From positions 5,001 through 69,000 of the forward strand of contig JAQGOG010000208.1 in the NCBI GenBank assembly GCA_028293765.1: a stretch of 64,000 nucleotides of DNA, given 5' to 3'. Made by a program: the position numbers and the translations under genes. The stretch comes from Gammaproteobacteria bacterium (GTDB lineage Bacteria; Pseudomonadota; Gammaproteobacteria; Steroidobacterales; Steroidobacteraceae). The notes beneath the pieces are model-generated. The model was not told the DNA's origin, searched no databases, and saw nothing but the letters and a program-made list of their open reading frames with translations. Positions within the stretch are counted from its first letter, which is position 1, and each line of letters starts with the position of its first letter. Shown here piece after piece: positions 7,623 through 42,878 of the stretch.

Positions 7623-7900
7623 GCCCCGGGCGAGCAACCCGCGGGCAGAACCCAGCCAGTCGGCGCAAGCGGCCCGGTTTTCGCCGGCATAGCCGCGCCT
7701 TTTGCCCGGAGCGCCCAGTCTACGGGCAGAACACGGCCACTAGGCGCGCTCGCTGAAAGCGCCCTGACCTGCGCGCCCCGGGCGACACGTCCCGCACGAC
7801 AACCGGCTGGCACTTTTCGCGCGCAAAAGTCACGCCTTTTGCCCGCGGGCAGAACGCAGCCAGTCGGCGCGCTCGCTGAAAGCGCTGGCCTATCCCGGGC
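7623..7900. repeat. Cluster of palindromic intergenic repeats (REP-like)
   Basis: The 345-bp gap after btuC is filled with related repeat units. CGGGCAGAAC recurs at 7642, 7723 and 7846, each followed by a variant of nCAGCCAGTCGGCGC; the latter two continue into GCGCTCGCTGAAAGCGC (7744-7762 and 7868-7884). CGCGCC/CACGCC plus TTTTGCCCG recurs at 7694 and 7831. In the last copy TTTTGCCCG abuts CGGGCAGAA, giving a palindrome centred on GCCCGCGGGC (7841-7850). In the earlier copy the same arms flank a 14-base loop. A 254-residue open frame runs through here but is a by-product of GC-rich DNA. A related block lies inside the hydrolase gene at 42415. Confidence 0.85.
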
Positions 7901-7946
7901 CGCAGGCTGCGCGCGCCGGGCGTCTTTCAGCCAATCAACAAGCCCA

Positions 7947-35078: not shown

Positions 35079-36293
35079 CTAGCCGAAGTTGATCTTCGCT
35101 TCCAGGTTCGCGCGCGAGTCGGCGTTGACGAGCGCCTCTTCGAGGTTGATGCGGTTCTGCTTGTAGAGCTCCCGGAGGGCCACGTCGAAGCTTTGGATGT
35201 CGCGCTCGCCGCTGGCCGAGATGGCTTCCTTGATGCCGACCACGTCGCCTTTCTTGACGAGCTCCTGGATATGCGGCGTGTTGAGCATGACCTCGACAGC
35301 GGCGCAGCGCTTGTTGTCCTTGCCCATGATGAGCCGCTGGGCCAGGATCGCGCGCAGGTACTGCGACAGATCGAGGAAGATCTGCGCGTGCTGCTCGCGC
35401 GGGAACATGTTGATGATACGGTCGAGGGATTCGGCGCTGTTGTTTGCGTGCATCGTCGCAAGCACCAGGTGACCGGTGCCGGCGAGATGGATGGCCGCTT
35501 CCATACTTTCGCGGTCGCGGATTTCACCAATCAATATCACGTCGGGCGCCGCACGAACGACACCGCGAAGGGCGCGAGCATACGTTTTCGTATCGAGCCC
35601 GACTTCGCGCTGATTGACGATCGAGCGCTTGTTCGTGTGCAGGAACTCGATCGGGTCTTCGATGGTGACGATGTGGTCGGAGGAGTTCTCATTCCGGAAG
35701 TTGATCATTGCGGCAAGCGTCGTCGACTTGCCGGAGCCGGTGGCACCCACCATGAGGACGAGGCCGCGCTTCAGCATGATCAAGTCTGTCAGGACGTCGG
35801 GGAGGCCGAGATTGTCCATTCGCGGCATGTCCGCCGTGATGTAGCGCAGGACCATGGCGGGATAGCCGCGCTGCATGAAGACGTTGACGCGGAAGCGCCC
35901 GAGGCCGGGCTCCGAGATCGCGAAATCGAGCTCCCACTCGTTGATGAAGTGTTCGCGTTGGGGGTTGCTCATGAGCGCGTAAGCGGTCTGCTTCACCGTT
36001 TCGGGTGTCAGGACCTGCTTGTTCACCGGCAGAATCTGGCCTTCGATCTTGATCTTGATCGGGGCATTGGAGGTAAAAAACAGGTCGGAAGCCTTTTTCT
36101 CCACCATGAGCTTGAAGAGCGGTTTGGTATTGAGTGTCAGGTGGGGACCGCCCGCCAACACATCGGTCCCCGCGAGGGCCGGCTGCGGGCCCGTGGTGGA
36201 CAGGGTCGTATCCACCGGTGCGCCGGCCGCCGGTACGCCGGCCGCCGGCATTCCGGCCACCATTTCTTTCACCACCGTCATGGTCTGCTGCAC
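35079..36293 (-). CDS. Third PilT/PilU-family pilus ATPase
   Basis: A secretion ATPase of 404 residues, related to PilU and PilT but a separate gene. Walker A VGATGSGKSTT, the Asp box IEDPIEFLH, Walker B VILIGEIRDRESM and His box GHLVLATMHANN are intact, so it should hydrolyse ATP. It differs from its neighbours by an extra N-terminal Ala/Pro/Gly-rich segment of about 55 residues (MPAAGVPAAGAPV) encoded by short GC-rich repeats; the real start may lie inside this segment. It lies 15 bp downstream of pilU on the same strand. A helper retraction ATPase is the likely role, inferred from family and position. Confidence 0.92.
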   Translation of the reverse strand: MQQTMTVVKEMVAGMPAAGVPAAGAPVDTTLSTTGPQPALAGTDVLAGGPHLTLNTKPLFKLMVEKKASDLFFTSNAPIKIKIEGQILPVNKQVLTPETVKQTAYALMSNPQREHFINEWELDFAISEPGLGRFRVNVFMQRGYPAMVLRYITADMPRMDNLGLPDVLTDLIMLKRGLVLMVGATGSGKSTTLAAMINFRNENSSDHIVTIEDPIEFLHTNKRSIVNQREVGLDTKTYARALRGVVRAAPDVILIGEIRDRESMEAAIHLAGTGHLVLATMHANNSAESLDRIINMFPREQHAQIFLDLSQYLRAILAQRLIMGKDNKRCAAVEVMLNTPHIQELVKKGDVVGIKEAISASGERDIQSFDVALRELYKQNRINLEEALVNADSRANLEAKINFG

Positions 36294-36308
36294 CTCAAAA
36301 ATGAATCC

Positions 36309-37463
36309 CTACAGGCTGTGTCCCTGATCTTCCTCGACGATGTGCAGGGCGCCGCCGTCATCGATGTTCTTGACCTCGCGCTTGCTCTCGAGCTTGATGC
36401 GCAGGCGCAGCTCGTTCTTCGAGTCGGCGTTGCGCAAGGCATCCTCGTAGGAGATGAAGCCGGTCTCGTACAGCTCGTACAGGGACTGGTCGAAGGTCTT
36501 CATGCCGAGCCGGGTGGAGCGCGCCATGACCTCTTTGATCTTGGCCACTTCGCCCTTGAAGATGAGGTCCTGGATGAGCGGCGAGTTGAGCATGATCTCC
36601 ATCGACGCGATTCGGCCAGAGCCGGATTCGCGTGGGATGAGCCGTTGCGAGACGAGCGCGCGGACGTTGAGCGACATGTCCATGAGGAGCTGCTCGCGGC
36701 GTTCGTCGGGGAAGAAGTTGATGATGCGGTCGAGCGCCTGGTTGGCGCTGTTGGCGTGAAGCGTGGCCAGCACGAGGTGGCCGGTCTCGGAGAACTGGAT
36801 GCCATACTCCATGGTCTCGCGATCCCGGACTTCGCCGATCAGGATCACGTCAGGCGCCTGGCGCAAGGTGTTCTTCAGCGCGGCATGCCACGAGTCGGTG
36901 TCCACGCCCACTTCACGGTGCGTGATAACGCAGCCCTTGTGCTGATGGACGTATTCGACCGGGTCTTCGATCGTCACGATGTGGCCGCGCGTCTTCTCGT
37001 TGCGGTAGCCGACCATGGCGGCGAGCGAGGTCGATTTTCCCGAGCCCGTGCCGCCGACGATAATGACCAGGCCGCGCTTCGAGAGCACGACTTCCTTCAG
37101 GATCGGGGGCAGGTCGAGCTCTTCAAATGTCGGGATCTTGGCGTTGATGAGGCGGATAACGCAGCCCACGGCACCCTGCTGCACGAAGGCGCTCACGCGG
37201 AAGCGGCCGATGCCGGGGGGCGCAATCGCGAAATTGCACTCTTTCGTGGCATCGAATTCCTTCGTCTGGCGATCGTTCATGATCGCGCGCACGAGCGTGC
37301 CCGACTGCTCGACCGTCAGCGCCCGCTCACTCTGCGGGCGGATCTCGCCATCCAGTTTGATGGCTGGGGGAAAGCCCGCGGTGATGAACAGGTCCGAGGC
37401 TTTCTTCTCGGTCACCCGCCGCAGCAGGTCCTGCATCAGCTTGATAGCTTGATCGCGATCCAT
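36309..37463 (-). CDS. pilU: Type IV pilus retraction ATPase PilU
   Basis: PilT-dependent accessory retraction motor at the pilus base. The 384-residue protein has EKKASDLFITAGFPP at the N terminus, Walker A VGGTGSGKSTS, the Asp box IEDPVEYVHQHKGC, GEVRDRETMEYG, and the ALDRIINFFPDERREQ segment typical of PilU. The acidic-ended C-terminal tail (ALHIVEEDQGHSL) beyond the core also matches PilU. It is 29 bp downstream of pilT. Confidence 0.94.
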   Translation of the reverse strand: MDRDQAIKLMQDLLRRVTEKKASDLFITAGFPPAIKLDGEIRPQSERALTVEQSGTLVRAIMNDRQTKEFDATKECNFAIAPPGIGRFRVSAFVQQGAVGCVIRLINAKIPTFEELDLPPILKEVVLSKRGLVIIVGGTGSGKSTSLAAMVGYRNEKTRGHIVTIEDPVEYVHQHKGCVITHREVGVDTDSWHAALKNTLRQAPDVILIGEVRDRETMEYGIQFSETGHLVLATLHANSANQALDRIINFFPDERREQLLMDMSLNVRALVSQRLIPRESGSGRIASMEIMLNSPLIQDLIFKGEVAKIKEVMARSTRLGMKTFDQSLYELYETGFISYEDALRNADSKNELRLRIKLESKREVKNIDDGGALHIVEEDQGHSL

Positions 37464-37492
37464 GGGTCAGATGCTCACTTTGGCACGCATGC

Positions 37493-38533
37493 TTACAGCG
37501 CGTCCTTGTTCTGCGCTTTGTAGCGCGCCTCTTCCTTGCTGATGAGGCCCTTGCCGACGAGATCCGCGAGACACTGGTCGAGGGTTTGCATGCCCGCCGC
37601 CTGGCCCGTCTGGATGGAGGAATACATCTGCGCGATCTTGCCCTCGCGGATGAGGTTGCGGATCGCGGGGGTGCCGATCATGATTTCATGCGCCGCGATG
37701 CGGCCGCCGCCGTTGCGCTTCAACAACGTCTGCGAAATGACCGCGCGCAACGACTCAGACAACATCGAGCGGACCATGTCCTTCTCGGCCGCGGGAAACA
37801 CGTCGACGACACGGTCGATGGTCTTCGCCGCGGAGCTCGTGTGTAGCGTACCGAACACAAGGTGCCCGGTTTCGGCGGCGGTCAGCGCGAGGCGAATGGT
37901 CTCGAGGTCGCGCATTTCACCGACCAGAATGACGTCCGGATCTTCGCGCAGCGCCGAGCGCAGCGCCTCGGTAAAGCCGAGCGTATCCCGGTGGACTTCG
38001 CGCTGGTTGATGAGACAACGCTTGGATTCGTGTACGAACTCGATCGGATCCTCGATCGTGAGGATGTGGTCGGGACGGTTGTCGTTGCAATGGTTGACCA
38101 TGCCGGCCAGCGTCGTGGACTTGCCCGAGCCGGTCGGACCGGTGACGAGGACGAGGCCGCGCGGCAACATGCACAGGTCGCGAAAGATCTTCGGGGCGTT
38201 CAGGTCATCGAGCGAGAGGATGGCCGAGGGAATGTTGCGGAACACGGCGCCGGCGCCGCGGTTCTGGTTGAAAGCGTTGACGCGGAAGCGCGCGAGCTTG
38301 GGGATTTCGAACGAGAAGTCGGTCTCGAAGAACTCTTCGTACCCCTTGCGCTGCTTGTCGTTCATGATGTCGTACACCATGCTGTGCACTTCCTTGTGCG
38401 AAAGGGGCGGCATGTTGATGCGCTTCATGTCGCCATCGACACGGATCATCGGCGGCACGCCCGAGGACAGATGCAGGTCGGAAGCGTTGTTCTTGACGGC
38501 GAACGCCAGAAGTTGCGCGATGTCGACGGCCAT
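37493..38533 (-). CDS. pilT: Type IV pilus retraction ATPase PilT
   Basis: Hexameric motor that disassembles the pilus. Length is 346. Motifs: MAVDIAQLLAFAVKNNASDLHL at the start (first 20 typical), Walker A TGPTGSGKSTT, IEDPIEFVHESKRC, VGEMRDLETIRLALTAAETGH, and the conserved C-terminal AIRNLIREGK helix required for retraction. ATG 38533 has a good ribosome-binding site (AAGGGAGC) and fits family length; the longer frame to 38572 does not. It heads a pilT-pilU-ATPase operon divergent from yggS. Confidence 0.96.
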   Translation of the reverse strand: MAVDIAQLLAFAVKNNASDLHLSSGVPPMIRVDGDMKRINMPPLSHKEVHSMVYDIMNDKQRKGYEEFFETDFSFEIPKLARFRVNAFNQNRGAGAVFRNIPSAILSLDDLNAPKIFRDLCMLPRGLVLVTGPTGSGKSTTLAGMVNHCNDNRPDHILTIEDPIEFVHESKRCLINQREVHRDTLGFTEALRSALREDPDVILVGEMRDLETIRLALTAAETGHLVFGTLHTSSAAKTIDRVVDVFPAAEKDMVRSMLSESLRAVISQTLLKRNGGGRIAAHEIMIGTPAIRNLIREGKIAQMYSSIQTGQAAGMQTLDQCLADLVGKGLISKEEARYKAQNKDAL

Positions 38534-38644
38534 TGATGCTCCCTTGGGGGCGACTAAGGACTCGAAGAGCACGCCGGTGAGAGCGCGAACGGGTAACTGC
38601 TTCCCGAGTGCGCGGCAGTATAACGGAGGGGTTCTACATCCAAT

Positions 38645-42152: not shown

Positions 42153-42878
42153 TTAGGGGCCGGTGCTGTCGCGCATGAAGGTGAGTACGGCTTCGCGGAG
42201 CTCCGGGAGATGGCCGTGGAAGAAGTGTCCTGCACCCGCGAGCGCGGTAACCGTAGGCGGTGGTGAACGCTTTGCGGCCCACTCGAGCACCGCACGGGGC
42301 AATACGACGTCGTCGGCGCCACCCTGCACTATCAGCCACTTCGAAGGCGTTATGACGTCTTGCACGTCGACAAGCGTGATAGCGGGGGCCGCCACGACCA
42401 ACCGTTCAAGTGGCCAAAAGTCACGGCCTTCGCCCGCGGGCTGAAAGTGCCGCAGGGCGCTTTCAGCAGCCGAACAGGATTTCACGCGACCTGAGGCGCG
42501 AATAGCAACGGCACCGCCGAACGAAAATCCCGCAAGCCATAAGGCCGCACGAGGCCACCGATGCCTGCCGTAGGTAATGACCGCAAGTGCATCGTCGGTC
42601 TCGCCAATGCCTTCGTCATATTCGCCCTCGCTCGCCCCAACGCCGCGGAAATTGAATCGGATCGCAGGCGCGCCAAGCTGCTCGAAGGCTCGCGCAAGGG
42701 TATATACAACTTTGTTGTCGAGGGTCCCGCCGTACAGCGGATGGGGATGGCAGATCACGCCGAAAGCGCGGACCTCATCAGTGTCGACGGGTTCCGCGGG
42801 AGTTTCGATCAAGGCCTGGATATCCCCGGCCGGTCCGGGGATCACGAGACGCTCCGCGCGCCGTGGCTTGCTCACCAT
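42153..42878 (-). CDS. Alpha/beta hydrolase carrying an apparent repeat-derived insertion
   Basis: A 241-residue cytosolic serine hydrolase: oxyanion region CHPHPLYGGTLDNKVV, FRGVGASEGEYDEG, nucleophile Ser in AGFSFGGAVAI, acid loop IVQGGADDVV and catalytic His in AGAGHFFHGH. This is the small-hydrolase family with HPHPLYGG, of unknown substrate. Between ASGRV and LERLVVAAPAI, where relatives have only a few residues, there are about 24 extra residues (KSCSAAESALRHFQPAG and on) encoded by DNA resembling the repeat at 7.8 kb. The hydrophobic core on both sides is intact, so the protein may still fold. Confidence 0.9.
   Translation of the reverse strand: MVSKPRRAERLVIPGPAGDIQALIETPAEPVDTDEVRAFGVICHPHPLYGGTLDNKVVYTLARAFEQLGAPAIRFNFRGVGASEGEYDEGIGETDDALAVITYGRHRWPRAALWLAGFSFGGAVAIRASGRVKSCSAAESALRHFQPAGEGRDFWPLERLVVAAPAITLVDVQDVITPSKWLIVQGGADDVVLPRAVLEWAAKRSPPPTVTALAGAGHFFHGHLPELREAVLTFMRDSTGP
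42415..42485. repeat. Palindromic repeat copy embedded in frame in the hydrolase gene
   Basis: Bases 42415-42445 match 7824-7854 at 27 of 31 positions without gaps, including CAAAAGTCACG and GCCCGCGGGC. Directly after lies a hairpin: GCTGAAAGTGCC (42440-42451), loop GCAG, GGCGCTTTCAGC (42456-42467), paired at 11 of 12 positions plus one G-T wobble. GCTGAAAG is also the core of the intergenic units. The length is close to a multiple of three and the reading frame is kept. Confidence 0.7.

Follow-up and report, generated by a model that had tools for sequence, protein, structure and literature searches.

A palindromic repeat element in frame within an alpha/beta hydrolase gene of a gammaproteobacterium

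The hydrolase gene and its in-frame element

The subject of this analysis is a palindromic repeat element that lies in frame within an alpha/beta hydrolase gene of a gammaproteobacterium from the family Steroidobacteraceae (GenBank assembly GCA_028293765.1). The gene is contained in a 64,000-nt stretch of contig JAQGOG010000208.1 (positions 5,001 to 69,000), and "the window" refers to this whole stretch. The genome itself, designated G000, is a single draft assembly of 211 contigs and 6.64 Mb with a completeness of 98.8%. The features of interest are compiled in Table 1. The host protein matches the Pfam families Abhydrolase_1 and Hydrolase_4, in both cases barely above the cut-off. Its nearest solved structure is 2fuk (E 7.3e-24); phmmer yielded 3trd and 2fuk, which are both alpha/beta serine hydrolases.

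Table 1. Positions of the host gene, the inserted element and related repeats in the window. R1 is the covariance model of the repeat family, G062 the closest genome compared and G033 a congener.
Feature	Positions	Strand	Basis
Full-length intergenic family copy	7802..7938	+	R1 88.9 bits, E 4.2e-19 in the window
Probable degenerate remnants of more copies beside the full-length copy	7638..7762	.	Direct repeats D5, D8
Host gene, lidless alpha/beta serine hydrolase, 241 aa, XC6422 / 2fuk-like	42153..42878	-	Open reading frame
In-frame insertion, 69 nt = residues 135-157, edges uncertain by a few nt	42408..42476	.	Homologue alignment and gap in G062
Element core, 57 nt, short form without linker, orientation opposite to the gene	42411..42467	+	R1 match 42397-42474; match to G033 unit; side-by-side comparison
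Hairpin 1, decayed, three pairs flagged as non-standard	42411..42436	+	cmsearch alignment, fold
Hairpin 2, GCTGAAAG...CTTTCAGC, intact	42440..42467	+	One of 40 such hairpins in the genome

The inserted residues are missing in all 109 aligned homologue loci from near and far relatives, and both flanks align. This set consists of the 80 best among 265 loci found on named genome contigs and of 29 loci from unnamed relatives; two of the loci, L022 and L115, apparently represent one genome. A hydrolase match was found in 50 of the 60 genomes searched (G000 included), and most relatives match in two pieces that correspond to residues ~1–132 and 158–237. The protein of G062 matches residues 1–132 at 82% and residues 159–240 at 79%. 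At the DNA level the two genes agree at 78% (514/657), and the single internal gap comprises exactly 69 nt. The original prediction, which had postulated a palindromic repeat inserted in frame in this gene, is thus confirmed. It had further assumed about 24 additional residues; the reading frame is indeed kept, and the real length is 23. Two homologues (L061 and L088) possess unrelated extra residues of their own, 5 and 12 in number, at the same connection, which therefore tolerates variation in length. The simplest reading of these alignments is that the insertion would be a gain on the G000 lineage after its split from G062; a gain is presumed rather than a repeated loss.

The inserted DNA could be assigned to a repeat family. 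Positions 42415–42445 are identical to positions 7824–7854 in 27 of 31 bases without a gap, as had been claimed. The next best match of this block in the window reaches 21/31 (minus strand), and among 400 random 31-mers of the window that served as a control, one had an equally good partner (27) elsewhere in the window. The predicted hairpin is real as well; its 12-nt arms are 92% complementary and spaced by 4 nt. The 31-base block and the hairpin had been described as two neighbours but are both parts of one element. R1 matches the hydrolase copy with 31.3 bits (E 9.7e-6 in the window and 0.001 in the whole genome); this copy is absent from the 29 copies used to build the model. In the R1 alignment the linker is missing and hairpin 1 is decayed. 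A 76-nt unit from G033 matches the hydrolase copy at 88% over 60 nt (E 1.8e-15), which is the second best match of the unit in G000. Compared to shuffled sequences, the folding of the hydrolase copy is modest (z -2.2 and -1.9 for the two strands). For the inserted peptide, the comparison with the G033 unit reads AESGLRPFQPAGKRRDFCP -> AESALRHFQPAGEGRDFWP. Judged from the sequences, these changes look unconstrained, and the donor copy may differ from the G033 unit.

Copies, placement and range of the repeat family

A search of the 6.64-Mb genome gave 40 sites with the perfect hairpin GCTGAAAG...CTTTCAGC and none with the reversed control pattern. In most copies, a larger unit can be recognised with the order ACCGGC..., hairpin 1 of the GCGGGCAAAA..TTTTGCCCGC type, a linker ending with GGCGCGCTC, the GCTGAAAG hairpin, and a tail like CAATAAA. 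The full form has a size of about 105–135 nt and the short form of about 57–76 nt. The family alignment comprises 29 well-formed copies; 11 of the 40, the hydrolase copy among them, were left out. For five of the 21 predicted pairs, both partners have changed and the pairing is preserved; they belong to stem 1 and to a weak middle stem (e.g. G-C 15, A-U 13). The GCTGAAAG stem provides no evidence of pairing because it is invariant by construction of the search pattern. One copy folds far better than its shuffled counterparts (z -6.5), whereas this does not apply to the copy that begins at 7802 in the window (z -0.75).

Applied to G000, R1 yielded 92 matches with E <= 0.01, and the further copies implied by the original prediction are thus present. 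Weak copies were missed in this search because its first look scored just 150 of 7698 candidates. Elsewhere in G000, the short form was also found upstream of two genes, rplY and fdsA (alpha subunit of formate dehydrogenase). In G033, a tandem pair of short-form units, each about 76 nt long (L271:1513-1660, C470), is located directly upstream of an rplC-like gene. The gene names rplY, fdsA and rplC were assigned by reading translations. The spacer that holds the full-length window copy is presumably the btuC/cyclase spacer, with gene names taken from the original prediction. When eight loci were scanned with the covariance models of Rfam 15 (E up to 0.1), no family was found for the element and the sole match was a tRNA outside of it; a known Rfam RNA was rejected on this ground as the identity of the repeat. 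No description of the family was recognised in the literature, which was not searched with its sequence. The largest direct repeat of the window (D1) consists of three adjoining PilT/PilU-like ATPase paralogues at 35079–38572 on the minus strand, one of which has a T2SSE domain.

The position of the copies was determined relative to the calls of a codon-usage gene finder that was trained for this analysis and called 87% of the window coding. Forty-five of the 92 copies lie between tandem genes, 26 between convergent and 9 between divergent genes, 8 at contig ends, and 4 inside open reading frames (ORFs). The latter are the hydrolase copy, two copies in gspD and one copy in an 87-codon ORF (L169, score 7), which was set aside as doubtful. 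The real-gene cases among the 92 copies amount to one in the middle of a gene (the hydrolase) and three at the start of gspD; random placement at the coding density of the window would bring about 80 of the 92 into genes. The original prediction that the family colonises coding as well as intergenic DNA is correct in that both are hit; coding DNA is affected only rarely, with these four cases and one degenerate copy outside the 92. Long frames through copies in L191, L193, L149 and L215 were rejected, as they look antisense and the gene finder leaves the copies between genes; L206, L213 and L151 were rejected since the homologous protein apparently starts after the element, according to a reading of translations.

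Seven copies overlap a predicted gene end by 17–89 nt, namely the third gspD copy, at the predicted start, and six copies at 3' ends (17–69 nt). For two strong copies (L014:1430-1446 and L018:1403-1419), the gene ends with ...NRPAT-stop within the first bases of the element, from which its final codons and stop codon seem to derive. The other four 3'-end overlaps are weak matches with uncertain edges. The GCTGAAAG end is closer to genes than the opposite end, with a median gap of 17 nt compared to 62.5 nt (80 copies). Where it faces a stop codon, it is located within -12 to +8 nt of the stop in 26 of 43 cases; where it faces a start, the distance is 5–28 nt in 19 of 37 cases. Such a placement may act on mRNA ends.

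A scan for starts upstream of elements resulted in five rows, of which two for gspD and one for a DUF4097 protein were judged to be real; the rows on C173 and C98 were set aside by judgement. The gspD gene (L211:3227-5803, G000:C17, minus strand; TIGR02517, 514 bits) starts with a GTG behind a GGGGGA motif, and its frame crosses three tandem elements before the signal-peptide core FACGMLTVLAAVAPASAQ. In congeners such as G033, G009 and G005, the start region leads straight into the signal core. Of 41 genomes, 38 gave a match to gspD, and 30 loci were kept for the element search. R1 elements are present in two of these loci, three in G000 and one in G062, the latter in frame and at the same spot with a weak score of 25.5 bits; the other 28 loci gave no match to the model. 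Later gspD starts are possible; in our reading, any start that leaves a charged n-region would take in element sequence. The DUF4097 protein (Pfam 85.7 bits) contains a degenerate copy missed by R1 (C125:29545-29607; L352:606-1577), which lies in frame directly after the ATG and precedes the apparent signal core; the analysis of this case covered G000. As passages of PMC3733652 warn that N-terminal in-gene cases of repetitive extragenic palindromes (REPs) may be due to misannotation, the gspD and DUF4097 cases have to be viewed with caution.

R1 matches were obtained in 24 of 41 genomes of the genus, G000 included (23 of 40 sampled congeners), with 0 to 80 matches per genome. An order-wide screen of 196 genomes (E <= 1e-5, strict filters that miss weak copies) revealed two genomes with matches, both from the same genus. 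Ten more congeners had zero matches in this screen, including G003, which had three weak matches in the genus sample; absence outside the genus is therefore provisional. Apparently, the family is restricted to one genus. Six intergenic sites were checked against G062. The element is clearly shared at two of them (93.9 and 80.4 bits), a third shows a weak trace (12.2 bits, E 0.14) and a fourth a decayed remnant that is visible by alignment only; the remaining two contain neither a model match nor an alignable element in G062. This presence and absence between species suggests that the repeat is mobile. No Y1 transposase (RAYT, PF01797) was detected in a search that covered G000, and 5 of 14 control genomes were positive. 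One exact 28-base hairpin gave no match to viral contigs.

Probable tolerance of the insert by the host protein

Very probably, a short copy of the family was inserted into the hydrolase gene on the G000 lineage and is carried by the protein as a tolerated helix extension plus loop. The two-hairpin family would multiply within one gammaproteobacterial genus, nearly always between genes, presumably by means of a factor that acts in trans. After the split from G062, one short copy would have entered the gene and landed in the connection that leads from the helix behind the nucleophile elbow to the following strand; from general knowledge of the fold, we take this connection to be away from the active site. 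It would have been kept because its net length of 69 nt is a multiple of three, because one frame is without a stop, and because it landed in this connection. In a structure model of the host protein with a mean predicted local distance difference test (pLDDT) value of 91, helix 120–143 extends into the insert and is followed by a loop to strand 157. The ten-residue blocks spanning the insert (131–160) have values of 77, 62 and 77, which makes it the lowest-confidence segment apart from the C-terminal end. The original prediction had raised the question of whether the segment is a surface loop; a loop is modelled, together with the helix extension, both with low confidence.

The motif GFSFG at 117–121 and the residues D189 and H218, which by general knowledge of the fold are presumably the catalytic residues, are invariant in an alignment of 86 proteins and are all kept in G000, in agreement with the original prediction. 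Outside of the insert, a dN of 0.117 and a dS of 0.888 between G000 and G062 correspond to a low dN/dS of about 0.13 (211 columns), a value to which both branches contribute, as do the periods before and after the insertion. The insert is probably translated, its peptide would be neutral, and selection would have acted on the gene also after the insertion.

Several observations weigh against this interpretation. The insert is documented by one draft assembly of 211 contigs, and only a single copy among the 92 is located in the middle of a gene. The dN of the G000 branch is 0.063–0.080, compared to 0.037–0.054 for the G062 branch (four outgroups), and some loss of constraint is therefore possible; selection before and after the insertion is inseparable in the dN/dS data. 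The number of open copies per frame is 52, 59, 14, 61, 50 and 41 of 92, and single frames exceed the mean of shuffled sequences. On average over the six frames, however, the open fraction (277/552, 50%) is close to that of shuffles (48%); the element is therefore not built for translation. Across the copies, the core length modulo three is distributed as 28/31/33. The search for terminal inverted repeats in 45 strong copies gave a longest shared stretch of 5.18 nt versus 5.10 nt in control pairs, and that for flanking direct repeats 4.24 nt versus 4.31 nt in controls, the element ends being not exactly known. As neither target-site duplications nor terminal inverted repeats exceed the control, transposition is not documented at the ends.

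We regard it as unlikely that the hydrolase gene is a decaying pseudogene which is still open after the insertion. The somewhat faster amino acid change on the G000 branch and the free change of the inserted peptide relative to the G033 unit would be in line with decay, but the gene contains no stop or frameshift, the residues invariant over 86 sequences are kept, and both the dN/dS over the two branches and the high-confidence fold model argue against it. It is also unlikely that the element was recruited for a function in which the hairpin within the gene, or else the extra peptide, would regulate or improve the protein. Such a role could account for an intact hairpin 2 next to a decayed hairpin 1, and the other in-frame cases are found at gene starts, a position from which hairpins could influence translation. 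In contrast, no examined relative has the element in its hydrolase, the peptide changes look unconstrained, and the segment has the lowest model confidence apart from the C-terminal end.

Relation to known repeats and meaning of the insertion

Small palindromic repeats that are occasionally tolerated in genes are a kind already known from Rickettsia and other bacterial repeats. The excision of a repeat from the guanylate kinase of R. conorii was reportedly described by Abergel in 2006. According to passages of PMC10969869, many genes contain Rickettsia palindromic elements (RPEs) in frame, and these elements have a conserved peptide. The likeness consists in short palindromic repeats that lie in frame in unrelated genes and are tolerated as extra peptide (excerpts of PMC10969869 and PMC3733652), and the hydrolase copy is indeed a short palindromic element in frame in a protein gene. 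In contrast to RPEs, a large in-gene share is not observed here, as 4 of the 92 copies are found in real genes or at their start. Furthermore, the average over the frames shows no enrichment of open copies, and the host belongs to the Gammaproteobacteria and has a 6.6-Mb genome. The comparison with RPEs made in the original prediction thus holds for the behaviour, while the in-gene share and the openness of the frames argue against membership. On the basis of descriptions, the repeat may be said to act like an RPE; membership is not claimed.

In-gene REPs are known from Opitutus terrae, Thauera, Thioalkalivibrio and R. conorii, and REP ends often provide stop codons (parts of PMC3733652). The same parts describe GTAG/CGTC REPs that add 20–30 or more residues inside real genes and whose ends give stops; likewise, two strong copies of the present family end genes as NRPAT*. 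A GTAG/CGTC tag adjoining hairpin 2 was found in no case at the 5' arm (anchored in 35 of the 45 strong copies) and in no case at the 3' arm. Anywhere inside the strong copies, GTAG/CTAC occurs in 10/45 and CGTC/GACG in 19/45; the stem-by-stem tag test covered hairpin 2 only. Unlike these REPs, the family has two unlike hairpins and a linker, no tag at hairpin 2, and no RAYT was found; CGTC REPs are likewise said to be without a dedicated transposase. It is very improbable that the element belongs to the RPEs or to the GTAG/CGTC REP families: it shares with them that it is palindromic, repeated and in frame in genes, and the tag motifs do occur inside strong copies, but their absence beside hairpin 2 in the anchorable copies, the failure to find a RAYT in G000, the average openness of the frames and the mostly intergenic placement speak against this assignment.

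Passages of PMC5896051 report that QMITEs of Coxiella are sometimes in frame in hypothetical ORFs. Miniature inverted-repeat transposable elements (MITEs) such as QMITE1/2 of Coxiella and ERIC resemble the present family in size, stem-loops, intergenic habit and occasional in-frame insertion, as far as the excerpts of PMC5896051 and PMC10969869 describe them. In contrast to MITEs, neither terminal inverted repeats nor, at the approximate element ends, flanking direct repeats exceed the control here, and MITE identity was rejected because of the missing terminal inverted repeats in the 45 copies. The family acts in a similar way to RPEs, REPs and MITEs but departs from each of them in marks that were tested, and it is best filed as a new, apparently genus-restricted repeat of a known kind. 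That the 23 residues are an old lineage-specific loop resembling the repeat by chance or GC bias is hardly conceivable and in our view refuted by family match and empty site: gene and repeats are GC-rich, the hairpin-1 part is decayed and two homologues have unrelated extra residues at this connection, but 88% over 60 nt to a congener unit (E 1.8e-15), a perfect family hairpin, the absence of exactly these 69 nt from G062 and the one equally good match among 400 random 31-mers stand against it.

Insertion of a short family copy that is tolerated by the protein is the favoured reading. It is conceivable, albeit doubtful, that new protein segments arise from the repeat time and again in this genus, as Sec signal n-regions after starts, short C-termini at stops, and loop linkers. 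If this were true, degenerate in-gene copies would be commoner than the model of intact copies shows. Together with the empty site of a sister species, the hydrolase gene would be a clean example of how a small palindromic repeat turned into protein sequence in a bacterium other than Rickettsia and in a family other than the tagged REPs. As many genomes of the genus are available, the rate and fate of such insertions would be directly countable, which bears on the question of how selfish repeats may feed protein evolution.
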